Shown: positions 4,451 through 34,112 of the stretch, piece by piece
Layout of the letters: each line of letters starts with the position of its first letter
How positions within the stretch are numbered: the stretch's first letter is position 1
DNA from: a virus
Direction: 5' to 3' (one strand)
Length of the DNA: 36,394 nt
Virus record (IMG/VR): IMGVR_UViG_3300038619_000040
Location: 1-36,394 of that record
The notes under the pieces: generated by a model
Database searches by the model: none
Told to the model about the DNA's origin: nothing
The model's input: the letters and a program-made list of their open reading frames with translations, nothing else
Made by a program: the position numbers and the translations under genes

Positions 4451-4930
4451 GGAAGCCGATTCAACTGGCTGTCCCTTAGGGGCAGCCTTTTTTGCTTTCT
4501 TATGACCACTCCTTAGCCCACCTATTCGCGCCTCGCGCTGCTCTGGAGTATAAGACGCCCATTTTGCCTTGGCGTTATCCGAAAGAGCCTTCTTTTGCTC
4601 GGCAGTGAGCTTTTTTCCCTTATTCTTGTGTTTTATCGGCCCATCCATATATCTGAGAGCATCATTGACATGAGAATAATAACGAGGAACGGGTTTATTC
4701 AAATTCCCGACCGCATGCAAGATGTTGTCGATCGCGGATCGCATAATCATCAAATCTTGCCTAAGAGAATTTATTTCCAATGTATTTGTTCCCAACTTGG
4801 CTAGAAGAAAGCTTGCACGGCTATTTAACCCTTCATCGCTTACCTTGAACTGCTCGATCATGAAGCCCCGCCAGCGGAACGCCAGATATGCCAGTAGAAT
4901 CGTGTTAACCGCTAAAATGACTGTAATCAC
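4412..4930 (-). CDS. Membrane-anchored basic protein, unknown
   Basis: 172 residues. An N-terminal membrane helix (about 2-20) is followed by a helical region that may form a coiled coil (30-75). The basic C-terminal part contains LTAEQKKALSDNAKAKW and TPEQREARIGGLRSG, recalling the repetitive nuclease-associated modules that bind DNA (NUMOD3-like), but this resemblance is weak. It could tether DNA or protein at the membrane. It is cotranscribed with the 140-residue gene upstream (4-base overlap) and runs convergent with the ERF gene. Confidence 0.55.
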   Translation of the reverse strand: MITVILAVNTILLAYLAFRWRGFMIEQFKVSDEGLNSRASFLLAKLGTNTLEINSLRQDLMIMRSAIDNILHAVGNLNKPVPRYYSHVNDALRYMDGPIKHKNKGKKLTAEQKKALSDNAKAKWASYTPEQREARIGGLRSGHKKAKKAAPKGQPVESASLVGAGGNVSNPV

Positions 4931-5349
4931 GCGTGAACCCCCTTAGATTGCCCTTGGGCTGCAATAACGACGTTTAGAGGCATATGGCCTGCTGGAGCCT
5001 GATCTAAGCGATCAAAGGGCATGTAAATCTGTTCCTGCTTGGGAGCAGGGACGAATCGGCTAGACAAGTCAGCCATCTGAGCTTTCAGCCACTTTGTCTT
5101 GTGAGACCAGGTGAGATATTCCAATTCCTTGAAATTCTTTTGGATCATGTGATCGAGGAACTTTTCTTCTTCATCCTCCAGGAAGCCCGCATTAAGGCAT
5201 TGTTTCAGAAGTTGAATATAGTTCCAGTTGGCGAATCTCCGGCATGAACTCAGGTTTTCAAGCGCTTTGACTTTCTTTTTATGGCAGATGAAGTTATAAA
5301 ACTTTTCTTTAAATTGATCTAATTTAAGGCTAAAATATGATTTGGACAT
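4927..5349 (-). CDS. Hypothetical protein, 140 residues
   Basis: No family recognised. It has a basic, aromatic helical N-terminal half and a proline-containing tail. GGAGGG lies 6 bases before ATG 5349. It reads away from the structured intergenic region at 5350-5587, so it shares a divergent control region with the replication initiator. It is coupled to the membrane-anchored protein downstream by ATGA. Confidence 0.6.
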   Translation of the reverse strand: MSKSYFSLKLDQFKEKFYNFICHKKKVKALENLSSCRRFANWNYIQLLKQCLNAGFLEDEEEKFLDHMIQKNFKELEYLTWSHKTKWLKAQMADLSSRFVPAPKQEQIYMPFDRLDQAPAGHMPLNVVIAAQGQSKGVHA

Positions 5350-5450
5350 TAAAATCCCTCCTATGTATCCCTAGGAATATAAAGAGAGTTAAGATTTTAC
5401 GCTAGATTAGAAAGTAATTTTTCCGTTAGAGTGAGCGCTATAAAAAAGAA

Positions 5451-5588
5451 ACCCCAGGCAGCGAACCCAGGGTTAAAAAAGAAAGGCGGTATCTTGACAG
5501 ATGCCACCATACTAACGGTGTTTGCGGATTTAACGCAAGTCTTTTAAGAATCAAAAGCTGCCTGGGGTACAAAAAAATGGAGACCCCA
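5451..5588 (+). ncRNA. Structured leader RNA with riboswitch-like layout
   Basis: A perfect 12-bp closing stem, ACCCCAGGCAGC (5451-5462) with GCTGCCTGGGGT (5557-5568), encloses several small hairpins: AACC/GGTT at 5464-5474, GGTATCT/AGATGCC at 5488-5505, ACC/GGT near 5506-5519, TTGCG/CGCAA at 5522-5538 and TTTT/AAAA near 5542-5556. The last six bases of the closing stem, TGGGGT (5563-5568), can instead pair with ACCCCA (5583-5588). That would trap the GGAG ribosome-binding site (5579-5582) in a loop and take up the first base of the start codon of the initiator gene. The competing pairings are visible in the sequence. A regulatory switch is inferred. A weak TATAAA (5439-5444) could be its promoter. 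Confidence 0.5.
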
Positions 5589-6469
5589 TGAATCAGCCAG
5601 GTTTTTACGCCATTATCCCAGCTCACATCAGATATTGCAAAGAGCTTGAACCCAACGCAAAACTTTTATATGGAGAATTGACCGCCTTAGCCACGGCCAC
5701 CGGATATTGCTGGGCATCCAATGCCTATTTTGCTGAACTTTATGATGTGGACATTAGCACCATCAAACGATGGATAACTTCTTTAAAAGATCAAAATTTT
5801 ATAAAAATTGAAATTTTTGTTGAGGGCATTCAACGTAAAAGAAAAATTTGGATTTCACCAGAAATTCAAAAAATTGTTACGAAGGCTCAAAAACAAGCCG
5901 ACGTCGGCTCAAAAATGAGCCCACGTCGGCTCAAAAATGAGCCATGTATTAATACAGAGAGTAATACAGATGAAGAGAGAGAGGAGGCGCAAGCGCCCGT
6001 GTCTCTCCCTTTTCAATTCAAAAGAGTGAAGATGGCTCAAGAAAAGTATGATGAGCTGTGCGAGAAGTTTGGGAAAAGGGTTGTTGATGAGAAGATTGAA
6101 AAACTAGATGAGTACGCCGACTTGAAGCCAAAGAAATTCAAAGAATATGGCTGTCATTTTACAGTCGTTCGAAATTGGATCAAAAAAGACATGGAATCGA
6201 AAGGGGCTGTCACTTCTCAGGGAATTGGGCAGGAAACCCGTCAAGAGATAGAGGCCAACAATAGAAGCTGGGCAAGCCAAACCAGAAGAAAGTTCTTTGA
6301 GGCCATCAAAGCAGATCAAATTCGAGAGTTGAGCAGCGGATGGGAGTTTAACAAAACCGGAAAGCCAGCAAATTTAACAGTGCTAGTTGAGTTTAAAGAC
6401 CCCGATTTTATAGAATCCTGCATCGTATTGATCGAGCAAATGGGGATTCAGCATCAGAACGTATATTGA
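5588..6469 (+). CDS. O-like replication initiator with winged helix-turn-helix
   Basis: 293 residues. The N-terminal part (about 1-85) has the pattern of phage replication initiators: GFYAIIPAHIRYCKEL, then LLYGELTALA, then CWASNAYFAELYDVDISTI, then a wing. The region around 150-205 (F-K-R-V-K-M, YDELCEKFG, then FTVVRNWIKKD) matches the C-terminal helical module of DnaD/replisome-organiser-like proteins that contact the helicase loader. The middle (about 98-120) is coded by three 22-bp DNA repeats, the likely origin, as in lambda O. GGAG precedes ATG 5588. A structured leader may control its translation. Confidence 0.75.
   Translation: MNQPGFYAIIPAHIRYCKELEPNAKLLYGELTALATATGYCWASNAYFAELYDVDISTIKRWITSLKDQNFIKIEIFVEGIQRKRKIWISPEIQKIVTKAQKQADVGSKMSPRRLKNEPCINTESNTDEEREEAQAPVSLPFQFKRVKMAQEKYDELCEKFGKRVVDEKIEKLDEYADLKPKKFKEYGCHFTVVRNWIKKDMESKGAVTSQGIGQETRQEIEANNRSWASQTRRKFFEAIKADQIRELSSGWEFNKTGKPANLTVLVEFKDPDFIESCIVLIEQMGIQHQNVY
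5879..5944 (+). repeat. Three 22-bp iterons inside the initiator gene (putative origin)
   Basis: Exact tandem phase: 5879-5900, 5901-5922, 5923-5944. Copies 2 and 3 differ at one base. Copy 1 matches copy 2 at 17 of 22. Each copy holds the palindrome GGCTCAAAAATGAGCC (copy 1: GGCTCAAAAACAAGCC). Because 22 is not a multiple of three, each copy is translated in a different frame and the peptides differ, so the repetition is conserved as DNA, not as protein. An AT-rich stretch follows (5945-5970). This is the lambda-type origin arrangement. Confidence 0.7.
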
Positions 6470-28339: not shown

Positions 28340-28411
28340 GGCCCTATAGCTCAGTGGTAGAGCGGTAGGCTGAAGACCTACGCGTCAGAGGTTCGACTCC
28401 TTTTGGGGCCA
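28340..28411 (+). tRNA. tRNA-Phe (GAA)
   Basis: Complete cloverleaf by eye: acceptor GGCCCTA with TGGGGCC (one G-T pair), D stem GCTC/GAGC, anticodon stem GTAGG/CCTAC with loop CTGAAGA (anticodon GAA at 28412 minus 40 to minus 38, i.e. 28372-28374), T arm AGAGG-TTCGACT-CCTTT, discriminator A at 28411. No CCA is encoded. The last six bases are also the first six of tRNA-Met. Confidence 0.85.
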
Positions 28412-28478
28412 TTAGCTCAGTGGTTAGAGCATAGGTCTCATAATCCTGTGGTCAAAGGTTCAATTCCTTTATGGCCCA
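28406..28478 (+). tRNA. tRNA with CAT anticodon (Met, or Ile2)
   Basis: Acceptor GGGCCAT with ATGGCCC is perfect, D stem GCTC/GAGC, anticodon loop CTCATAA (anticodon CAT), T arm AAAGG-TTCAATT-CCTTT, discriminator A. The base pair next to the anticodon loop is T-T and the first anticodon-stem pair is T-G, so the stem is weak. An elongator Met is most likely. A lysidine-modified Ile2 cannot be excluded. No CCA is encoded. It overlaps tRNA-Phe by six bases. Confidence 0.8.
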
Positions 28479-28866: not shown

Positions 28867-28938
28867 TGCTAGTGGTAGGAATTGAACCCACTACCTTTTC
28901 CTTACAAGGGAATTGCTCTGCCGATGAGCTACACTAGC
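28867..28938 (-). tRNA. tRNA-Thr (TGT)
   Basis: Acceptor GCTAGTG with CACTAGC is perfect, D stem GCTC/GAGC, anticodon loop CTTGTAA (anticodon TGT), anticodon stem ATTCC/GGAAA with an A-A pair at its base, T arm GTGGG-TTCAATT-CCTAC, discriminator A. No CCA is encoded. The stop codon of the gene at 28934 lies inside its first bases. Confidence 0.85.
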
Positions 28939-30770: not shown

Positions 30771-32104
30771 GCGAACCTCGGTTGGTATTTATCCATCAAT
30801 TTCTCGACATCTGCATCACTAGGCCCGCCCTTCGAATCCACATATCTCTTAACGGCAATAGCAAGGTATCGCATAGCATCGGCCCCATGTGAAGCCCAAT
30901 CGTGAACGGGTCTATTCTTATACACTTTATGGTTGTCATCGAACTCCTTCCTATAGTTTTCAAGGCATTTTATGAGCTGCTTGCACTTAGTCGCATCCAT
31001 GTAAAGACGCGGGAAGATGCCACGTAAACCTTCGATACCTTCCTCAACTCGCATGTGTAAAGTTGGTAAGACTGTAAACTTGATTCCAAGTCCTCCTGCG
31101 ACTTCGAGGGTGGACATTCCAGAAGAAAAGTGCCTGTTTTGGATGTCATGCGGGCCATAATGATCTGCATAAAGGTACGGCTTGCGAAAAAGTACTTCTG
31201 CATAATGGGGCAAGCCTTCTCCCTGATTTTCGTAATAGTCGATGACATTGATTGTATTGCCCACAATTTGGAAAAAGATAATGGATGTGGAGTCTCCAAT
31301 TCCGATATCCCAGGCGGTATATACACGAGTTGTCTTTTGCCAGGCCACTGCGCCGATTCGTTCTCCATCTCTTGCCTCCTGCATGTATCTTGCGTAATAA
31401 GCGCCTTCAATCCCTAGAGTGAAGGAACAATAAAACTCTTGCTGTACAAAATCCTCTGACATGCCATCGCGCCGTTCGGCTTCGATATCGTCTGGAGATA
31501 TGGCCCCTGTATCTTCAACAGTAAGAAGCTGAGCAAACCAGTCAGGATTAGCAGAAGCCATATCAAAGAGTTCTTTTGCATGATTCGCACCTCGAGGAGT
31601 GAAGTTAAAGACTGCCCAGCCACCGTTTTCTCTCAAAATAGGGCGAATTAACTGCCAAGCGATAGGGTTTTGCAGGGAGTATTCACTAAACACACAACCA
31701 ATAGGGTTAGTCCCAACAATTGAATCAACGTTATTAGTACCGACAATTTGAATGATAGACCCATTAACCAACCTTATTTTCATCTCTGTTGCGTTCGGCT
31801 CACCTGAAATCAGCGGTTGAGGAATGTGATTCAGGAATTTCTTGCCCTCTTTATCCATCCCATCCCAAAGAATCTTGCGCCCTTGGGAGAATTCAGGGAA
31901 AAGATAGTAGTATGTACCCACCTTCTGACAGGCTTTTACTATCATGTAATTCCAGCATGTCTTTTCCTTGCCAGCACGACGATGCCATACAAGCACACCA
32001 CGCTTCTTTTTGGCCATCTCTAGCCAGAATTGCTCTTGATAGTCCCTGCACTTGTATTCGTGAGGGAGTTCAATGGTGACTTGCTTCATATCGTCTTTAT
32101 TCAA
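30767..32104 (-). CDS. Terminase large subunit
   Basis: 445 residues. ATPase: Walker A HRRAGKEKT (41-49), Walker B GCVFSE (about 136-141) with catalytic E141, coupling motif FNFTPRG (166-172). Nuclease: TAWDIGIGDSTSIIFF (264-279) with acidic residues D266 and D271, and a final DWASHGADAMRYLA near 402-415. The enzyme packages DNA through the portal and cuts it. It starts at TTG 32104 with AAGGAG 6 bases upstream. Unusually, its small-subunit partner is 3.5 kb upstream. Confidence 0.9.
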   Translation of the reverse strand: MNKDDMKQVTIELPHEYKCRDYQEQFWLEMAKKKRGVLVWHRRAGKEKTCWNYMIVKACQKVGTYYYLFPEFSQGRKILWDGMDKEGKKFLNHIPQPLISGEPNATEMKIRLVNGSIIQIVGTNNVDSIVGTNPIGCVFSEYSLQNPIAWQLIRPILRENGGWAVFNFTPRGANHAKELFDMASANPDWFAQLLTVEDTGAISPDDIEAERRDGMSEDFVQQEFYCSFTLGIEGAYYARYMQEARDGERIGAVAWQKTTRVYTAWDIGIGDSTSIIFFQIVGNTINVIDYYENQGEGLPHYAEVLFRKPYLYADHYGPHDIQNRHFSSGMSTLEVAGGLGIKFTVLPTLHMRVEEGIEGLRGIFPRLYMDATKCKQLIKCLENYRKEFDDNHKVYKNRPVHDWASHGADAMRYLAIAVKRYVDSKGGPSDADVEKLMDKYQPRFA

Positions 32105-32781
32105 GTGAACTCCTTACACTTTAGCTTCCAGACGACAGGTTTGCCGTTTCGGAAGCACACCAAAGGCTCCGAACGAGCAATAATCCCCTCCATCATCTGC
32201 GGATTCATAGAGCAATTAGAGAGAGGTTTTGATTTAACGTATTCGACGATCTCATTTTCCGTCATAATCCCAATTTCAGGAACGATATCAATCCCCAGTC
32301 TTTTAGAGATTTCACGCACAGAAAGGCGCATTAACCACCATCCATTCACCCAGATATCAAATAGAATAAAGCTCACATCTTTCCGATAATTTCCCCCGCA
32401 AGATTGAATCTTGGGGCCATATCCCTCGCCATAGAGAATCACCTCTTTAGCTTCGGGGAATTCTTTGTAAAACTTCTCAAGGGTAAAAGTGTCTTGCAAG
32501 TGTTTTAGAAGATGGGGAGGAATTTGAGCGTTATCAGTCCGTCCTTTAAACTCCAAAGAGCCGATAGAATCGGGATTTTCGCACTTATAGTGTATACGAA
32601 TATTCGTCCCGTCGATCTTTTCATCTACCCGCCATTTGATGATATTTCCAAACTCTGGCTCCGAATAGTCCCCAATAATGAAAGACTGCCTCCCAGCTTG
32701 ATAATCGGGAGAGTTCTTCTTATCTTGGTCGAAATACCATCCGTTACGCTTCCAGAGGCTATTTATCTTGAAGTATTCCAT
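32101..32781 (-). CDS. RNA ligase, Rnl2-like nucleotidyltransferase
   Basis: 226 residues with the ordered ligase motifs: motif I EKIDGT with nucleophile K55, motif III near ILYGEGYG (115-122), IIIa FILFDIWV (138-145), IV MMEGIIARS (196-204) and V VVWKLKCKEF (216-225). This matches the short T4 Rnl2/DRB0094-type RNA ligases, which seal nicks in RNA after adenylylation. No repair kinase/phosphatase partner is seen. The phage also has three tRNAs, two of which overlap, so tRNA repair or maturation is a reasonable guess. AGG precedes ATG 32781. The end overlaps the terminase start. Confidence 0.8.
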   Translation of the reverse strand: MEYFKINSLWKRNGWYFDQDKKNSPDYQAGRQSFIIGDYSEPEFGNIIKWRVDEKIDGTNIRIHYKCENPDSIGSLEFKGRTDNAQIPPHLLKHLQDTFTLEKFYKEFPEAKEVILYGEGYGPKIQSCGGNYRKDVSFILFDIWVNGWWLMRLSVREISKRLGIDIVPEIGIMTENEIVEYVKSKPLSNCSMNPQMMEGIIARSEPLVCFRNGKPVVWKLKCKEFT

Positions 32782-33738: not shown

Positions 33739-33822
33739 TTAATCCCTACATGAAGTAATAAACATTCCCAATCCAACTGAAACCATCAAAAAACAAGCAC
33801 AAATTGTCACGGCTAAATCCAT
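33739..33822 (-). CDS. 27-residue membrane peptide
   Basis: The frame reads MDLAVTICACFLMVSVGLGM and ends FITSCRD, a single membrane helix. The start shares a base with the GroES stop (TAATG) with GGTGG upstream, and its end overlaps the ribosome-binding site of the 55-residue gene. Very short, so uncertain. Confidence 0.4.
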   Translation of the reverse strand: MDLAVTICACFLMVSVGLGMFITSCRD

Positions 33823-34112
33823 TAGTTCACCACCGCTACTACATCGTCATGCGTAACAATGAGATGGTCATCGCCTAACTCAATCCCTGCATAGTTCACC
33901 AGCATGATGGTATCGCCTACTTTGTATCCCCAAGGCAACCACCAGCCGTTAACCTGCATACAGCCATTACCTAACGCAACGATAGTCGCTTTATTGCGCT
34001 TGGCTTTGTGTTGTTCGGGTAATATGATCCCGCCATCTGTCACCGTTTCAGGCTCAATGAGCTTAACTAAGATACGATTGCCGATCGGGCGGATATTTGA
34101 TACATCTGACAT
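33822..34112 (-). CDS. groES: GroES-like co-chaperonin (Cpn10)
   Basis: 96 residues, the normal size of GroES. The Cpn10 fold landmarks are present: IRPIGNRILVKLIEPE (7-22), mobile-loop end DGGIILPE (26-33), ATIVALGNG (42-50), the K-V-G-D-T-I-M-L segment (64-71), Y-A-G-I-E-L and the final DDVVAVV. The mobile loop binds GroEL. Phage co-chaperonins such as T4 gp31 replace GroES so that the host GroEL chamber can fold the capsid protein. It lies in the packaging region. GAGG precedes ATG 34112. Confidence 0.85.
   Translation of the reverse strand: MSDVSNIRPIGNRILVKLIEPETVTDGGIILPEQHKAKRNKATIVALGNGCMQVNGWWLPWGYKVGDTIMLVNYAGIELGDDHLIVTHDDVVAVVN

Follow-up and report, generated by a model that had tools for sequence, protein, structure and literature searches.

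Antisense control of initiator genes is already known in plasmids. The countertranscript RNAI of the RepA_N plasmid pSK41 is transcribed from the rep leader and targets a site about 100 nt ahead of the translation start; it is proposed to promote a stem-loop in which the ribosome-binding site is sequestered (PMC5703833). In the RNAI attenuator of Rep_trans plasmids such as pT181, binding of the antisense RNA re-pairs leader segments and produces a hairpin at the rep start (PMC5703833). RNAII of pMV158 is a small antisense RNA with a U-rich 3′ end that pairs just upstream of the ribosome site and blocks initiator translation, and control is shared with a small neighbor protein, the repressor CopG (PMC4485353). 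The nearest phage precedents that we found are the RNA-based prophage origins of mycobacteriophages (PMC7157519) and C4 of phages P1 and P7, a structured, leader-derived RNA that RNase P releases from a longer transcript and that uses its loops to act on mRNA as part of an immunity system (PMC5320573).

We analyzed a virus record of 36,394 bases (IMG/VR IMGVR_UViG_3300038619_000040), the whole of which is referred to here as the window, and which by profile matches encodes a P22-like portal, an Erf-like annealing protein, and a phage capsid. The leader of its replication initiator gene is probably a bistable switch that controls translation of the initiator mRNA, one that would be read by an antisense RNA from the opposite strand of the leader. 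Four leader segments were defined: segment 1 is the 5′ strand of a closing stem, P1, segment 2 is the local downstream partner of segment 1, segment 3 is the 3′ strand of P1, and segment 4 is the ribosome-binding region. In the free mRNA, segment 1 would pair with segment 3 to form P1, segment 3 would be held off the ribosome-binding site, and the initiator would be translated. The antisense RNA would start inside the leader, extend over the complement of segment 2 and then that of segment 1, and end at the terminator on the outer edge of P1. When bound on segment 1, it would free segment 3 to pair with segment 4, and initiator synthesis would drop. Because the antisense RNA would increase with genome copies, replication would be capped, and another phage with the same type of pairing could be excluded. 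That the RNA is made, binds, and lowers initiator synthesis we infer from sequence features, the window coordinates of which are given in the table.

Features of the initiator leader and its neighborhood in the window
Feature	Coordinates	Strand	Basis or remarks
orfX, 140-aa all-helical protein, divergent from the leader in the relatives examined	4927..5349	−	Predicted model, mean pLDDT 77
Intrinsic terminator: hairpin 5474-5450 (−14.1 kcal/mol), then TCTTTTTT	5442..5474	−	Terminator scans
Predicted antisense (countertranscript) RNA, 61 nt, over segments 1 and 2	5442..5502 (5502-5442)	−	Inference from promoter and terminator
Segment 1, P1 5′ strand	5451..5462	+	Sequence, fold, P1 versus shuffles
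Segment 2, local partner of segment 1	5465..5474	+	Fold without P1, terminator scans
Hairpins inside P1: P2 (5488-5494/5499-5505), P3 (CACC...GGTG, about 5505-5520), P4 (about 5523-5538)	5488..5538	+	RNA fold
Putative −10 of antisense RNA promoter, TAGTAT, spacer 18	5509..5514	−	Promoter scan
Putative −35 of antisense RNA promoter, TTGCGT	5533..5538	−	Promoter scan
Segment 3, P1 3′ strand, can also pair with the ribosome-binding region	5557..5568	+	Sequence, fold, pairing tests
Segment 4, SD-like GGAG (5579-5582) and ACCCCA (5583-5588), complementary to segment 3	5579..5588	+	Ends on the A of the ATG
Replication initiator gene	5588..6469	+	293 aa; phrog_19658 replication initiation (E 4e-22), Pfam HTH_36
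Three 22-bp iterons with internal dyad symmetry, within the initiator gene	5879..5944	+	Probable origin

In the window, P1 is a perfect 12-bp inverted repeat formed by ACCCCAGGCAGC (5451-5462) and GCTGCCTGGGGT (5557-5568) with 94 nt between them, and the TGGGGT of its 3′ strand (5563-5568) can base-pair with ACCCCA (5583-5588) at the start of the initiator gene, the ATG of which occupies 5588-5590 behind an SD-like GGAG (5579-5582). Both pairings had been reported in the earlier note and are present in the sequence. The RNA fold of 5451-5610 has an energy of −53.2 kcal/mol (z −4.1), which 0 of 200 shuffles matched, and the P1-to-P1′ segment alone gives a z of −6.4. The helix score of P1 is 33 versus 14.4 ± 2.6 in shuffles, and none of 300 shuffles produced an equally strong helix equally far from the start codon. 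The alternative 1:2 hairpin extends from 5450 to 5474, and its minus-strand version is the stem of the terminator.

Relatives were gathered via the portal protein and then via the neighbor gene orfX, and their upstream regions were read. The nearest record, G010, is the only one near enough to the window for direct leader alignment, and a covariation test of the core with five sequences gave a signal no higher than its shuffle control. Its leader is 72% identical to that of the window, the interior hairpins are conserved between the two, and its P1 carries two two-sided compensatory changes (A-T to T-A and G-C to A-T), the kind of change whose absence from homologs the earlier note would have counted against the switch. 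Apart from G010, no sequence homolog of the window leader was found, the exact P1 pattern had 0 matches in IMG/VR, a search of the initiator against viral contigs returned no direct relatives, and a phage-database match was restricted to the initiator coding sequence. Beyond G010, the short core motifs GGTATCTT..AGATGCCACC and CGGATTTAAYGCAAGTC gave chance matches only, inside unrelated sequence, and matches of the core model in G003 and G004 were likewise judged to be chance, being located inside minus-strand coding or structural genes.

A candidate P1 is found at the same place in 13 other records, mostly with unrelated sequence. The window leader and these 13 were each given a P1 and four segments, with segments and P1 boundaries chosen partly by hand after the sequences had been viewed; these 14 leaders are partly interdependent, as G010 is close to the window and six leaders share one core. 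The computed results given below on P1 conservation, competing pairings, terminators, promoter enrichment, and geometry come from this set. In the relatives, the ribosome-binding region likewise pairs with the P1 3′ strand, an alternative partner for the 5′ strand is often found close by, and the 1:3 pairing of P1 excludes both 1:2 and 3:4. Seven leaders, including that of the window, have a loop of 89 to 96 nt and a P1 ending 19 to 22 nt before the start codon; the others are more variable (loops 51-112, distance to the start codon 30-40). When P1 was sought by geometry only and compared with shuffles, the Stouffer score was 10.8 (16 leaders), with P1 individually weak in the shuffle test for L056, L100, L106, and L107, and not placed in L101.

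The competing hairpins also exceed shuffled expectation, with Stouffer scores of −9.6 for the pairing of segment 3 with the start region (3:4) and −5.1 for 1:2 (14 leaders). For 3:4 (P = 0.005) and for 1:2 (P = 0.0006), pairing is better between cognate segments than after partners are swapped, and there is no gain for the control pairings 2:3 (0.12), 1:4 (0.80), and 2:4 (0.58). The mean z of ribosome-site folding is −1.85 in the leaders, compared with +0.21 at 42 other starts in the window, and the P1-closed and P1-open folds are within 7.2 kcal/mol of each other in 13 of 14 leaders. Overall fold energy favors the plus strand in seven of the 14 leaders and the minus strand in the other seven, with a mean z-difference of −0.67 towards plus. 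Predicted accessibility of the ribosome site falls in part of the set and is unchanged in L056, L059, L100, and L106. In the window it does not fall without P1 (unpaired 0.43 free and 0.53 covered), the region being predicted as partly paired in both states, and the switch effect would for this reason be clearer in the relatives than in the window itself. The mutually exclusive pairings that the earlier note took for an expression platform are supported by the recurrence of P1 and of the 3:4 hairpin in relatives, but not by the accessibility of the window's own ribosome site. That note had overlooked the conservation of the leader, the local partner at 5465-5474, and the terminator and promoter-like site of the minus strand.

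Of the 14 leaders, 12 have an intrinsic terminator on the minus strand, beside segment 1 on the outer side of P1; L059 and L119 have none by the rule of the scan. The Stouffer score of the terminator scan is +10.9 for the minus strand versus −0.1 for the plus strand, where no convincing terminator was detected in the scanned 5′ part of the leaders, except in L107. The sigma70-like promoter score of the leader interior, computed with a matrix based on E. coli statistics, has a Stouffer value of +5.0 on the minus strand versus −1.2 on the plus strand (14 leaders), and the window promoter alone is unremarkable against shuffles (z 0.15). Together with the terminator, a TTG..16-18..TANNNT pair predicts an RNA of 58 to 85 nt (120 in L119) in 13/13 leaders, and the predicted RNA spans all of segment 1 in each of them; the promoter/terminator pairs were picked partly by hand after inspection of the sequences, and in L054, L058, L059, and L119 the promoter pair used differs from the best one of the automatic scan.

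The predicted RNA would resemble pSK41 RNAI in its origin from the initiator leader, in the distance of its target from the translation start, and in possessing two stem-loops and a single-stranded spacer, although the phage initiators are of several unrelated types; the likeness is one of scheme, and no sequence relation is claimed. The re-pairing of leader segments would be shared with pT181, but that system mainly ends transcription and, apart from L107, the phage leaders have no convincing plus-strand terminator in the 5′ part scanned. With pMV158, the phage locus would share a small antisense RNA with a U-rich end and a small neighboring gene, but RNAII pairs close to the ribosome site, and orfX is divergent and of no known family. 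C4 is likewise a leader-derived phage RNA, whereas the RNA predicted here would be transcribed from the opposite strand, and a search of the phage leaders with Rfam gave no match to the C4 fold. Our literature search found no paper on such an arrangement in phages, which does not prove that there is none. Phage lambda has a short leftward RNA, OOP, beside its initiator gene O, but OOP acts on cII and not on translation of O through leader switching.

A leader of this kind might instead be a riboswitch, in which the hairpins inside P1 are a binding site whose ligand (a metabolite, the orfX protein, or a protein of the host) favors P1 and thereby turns translation on. Its switching anatomy would be identical, the interior of the leaders folds well alone (Stouffer −6.0), a clade of six leaders has an invariant TATCTTA...CAAG...GCAAG in the interior, and orfX adjoins the leader in the relatives examined. 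However, the TATCTTA and CAAG of the six-leader clade read as TAAGAT and TTG on the minus strand, 17 to 18 nt apart, such that the most conserved interior bases coincide with a −35/−10 pair at a spacing of 16 to 18 nt, a coincidence that fits an antisense RNA as the sensor. An aptamer should retain its binding site, but the core model (R1) matches a subset of leaders only and the core is absent from the window, L057, L060, L100, L119, and L122. The Rfam covariance-model search of the leaders gave no match at the gathering score, the best being far below the cut-off. As a known RNA-binding protein orfX was rejected, having no match among Pfam, PHROG, or PDB folds, and its co-occurrence with the leader is partly a selection effect, since orfX was used to find leaders. 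We regard a riboswitch as unlikely, and the aptamer for a small molecule, protein, or temperature envisaged in the earlier note is not supported; a small-molecule aptamer is not needed to explain the leader. Quite unlikely, in our judgment, is that the minus-strand promoter and terminator serve orfX, the minus RNA being an orfX leader with an attenuator and the plus-strand P1 a by-product. The position of orfX (5349-4927), downstream on the minus strand with the terminator before it, would suit this arrangement, which nevertheless does not account for the way segment 3 pairs, on the plus strand, with the region around the initiator start.

The long perfect inverted repeat within a replication region could also be a DNA element, a cruciform or origin structure recognized in replication, and the interior of L056 contains TTATCCACA, a DnaA-box sequence. 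That DnaA-like string is not retained in relatives, however, and the 3:4 pairing tracks the translation start. Repeats similar to the iterons of the window, which are typical of a lambda-type origin, occur 310 to 710 nt into the initiator gene in most relatives, and these internal iterons are probably a lambda-type origin; because they sit inside the initiator gene, an origin role of the leader is unlikely. We consider a DNA element very improbable, and the replication or cruciform signal that the earlier note listed as its alternative is disfavored on the same ground. A DnaA box was separately rejected as the cause of a conserved TTATCC, which varies and pairs with GGRTAA. Ribosome-site hairpins, present in nearly all leaders, would be expected of an RNA thermometer or of a simple stabilizing leader with no switch, but the strong competing P1 and the conserved promoter and terminator of the opposite strand would then be unexpected, and this explanation has the slightest probability of those considered. 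Autoregulation by the initiator is disfavored because the same core precedes at least four unrelated initiator N-terminal types.

Those N-terminal types are found downstream of the same leader core or type in L056, L059, L061, L101, L106, and L107, and their exchange behind one leader type implies a recombination boundary between leader and gene. If the antisense-read bistable leader is real, its full anatomy in front of the mosaic initiator genes of a tailed-phage lineage would link phage replication control to plasmid copy control. One portal relative (L099 and G052 contig 232; portal 74% identical) lies in a MAG entitled Chlamydiia bacterium, on a contig that also encodes orfX; this is the sole host evidence and suggests a chlamydial host for this tailed-phage lineage. 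A further reading, which we hold to be less likely than not, is that a whole tailed-phage lineage, probably of Chlamydiia, rules a lambda-type initiator by plasmid-style antisense RNA and a bistable leader, with the design kept and the pairing sequences differing by phage. The phages would then fall into groups defined by incompatibility or by superinfection immunity, and their prophages could be plasmid-like and under copy control. The leader anatomy offers a concrete approach to the question of whether these phages, with their one link to Chlamydiia, are maintained as plasmids or keep one another out through RNA pairing. Conserved pairing logic combined with opposite-strand signals, in place of sequence, also provides a search recipe for leaders that Rfam misses.

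The orfX protein is conserved, with ALEN and LDW.HKTKW motifs, and may be a partner regulator; comparison of the orfX tree with leader type was poorly resolved. Elsewhere, the window encodes a GroES-like co-chaperonin (33822-34112; Cpn10, E 5e-20), a protein with an RNA ligase domain (32101-32781; Pfam RNA_ligase, E 2e-15), and two tRNA genes on opposite strands (28406-28478 and 28867-28938). Two HTH regulators (HTH_17 and YdaS/HTH_3-like) are encoded at 1352-1952, and lysogeny control is a possible role for them.
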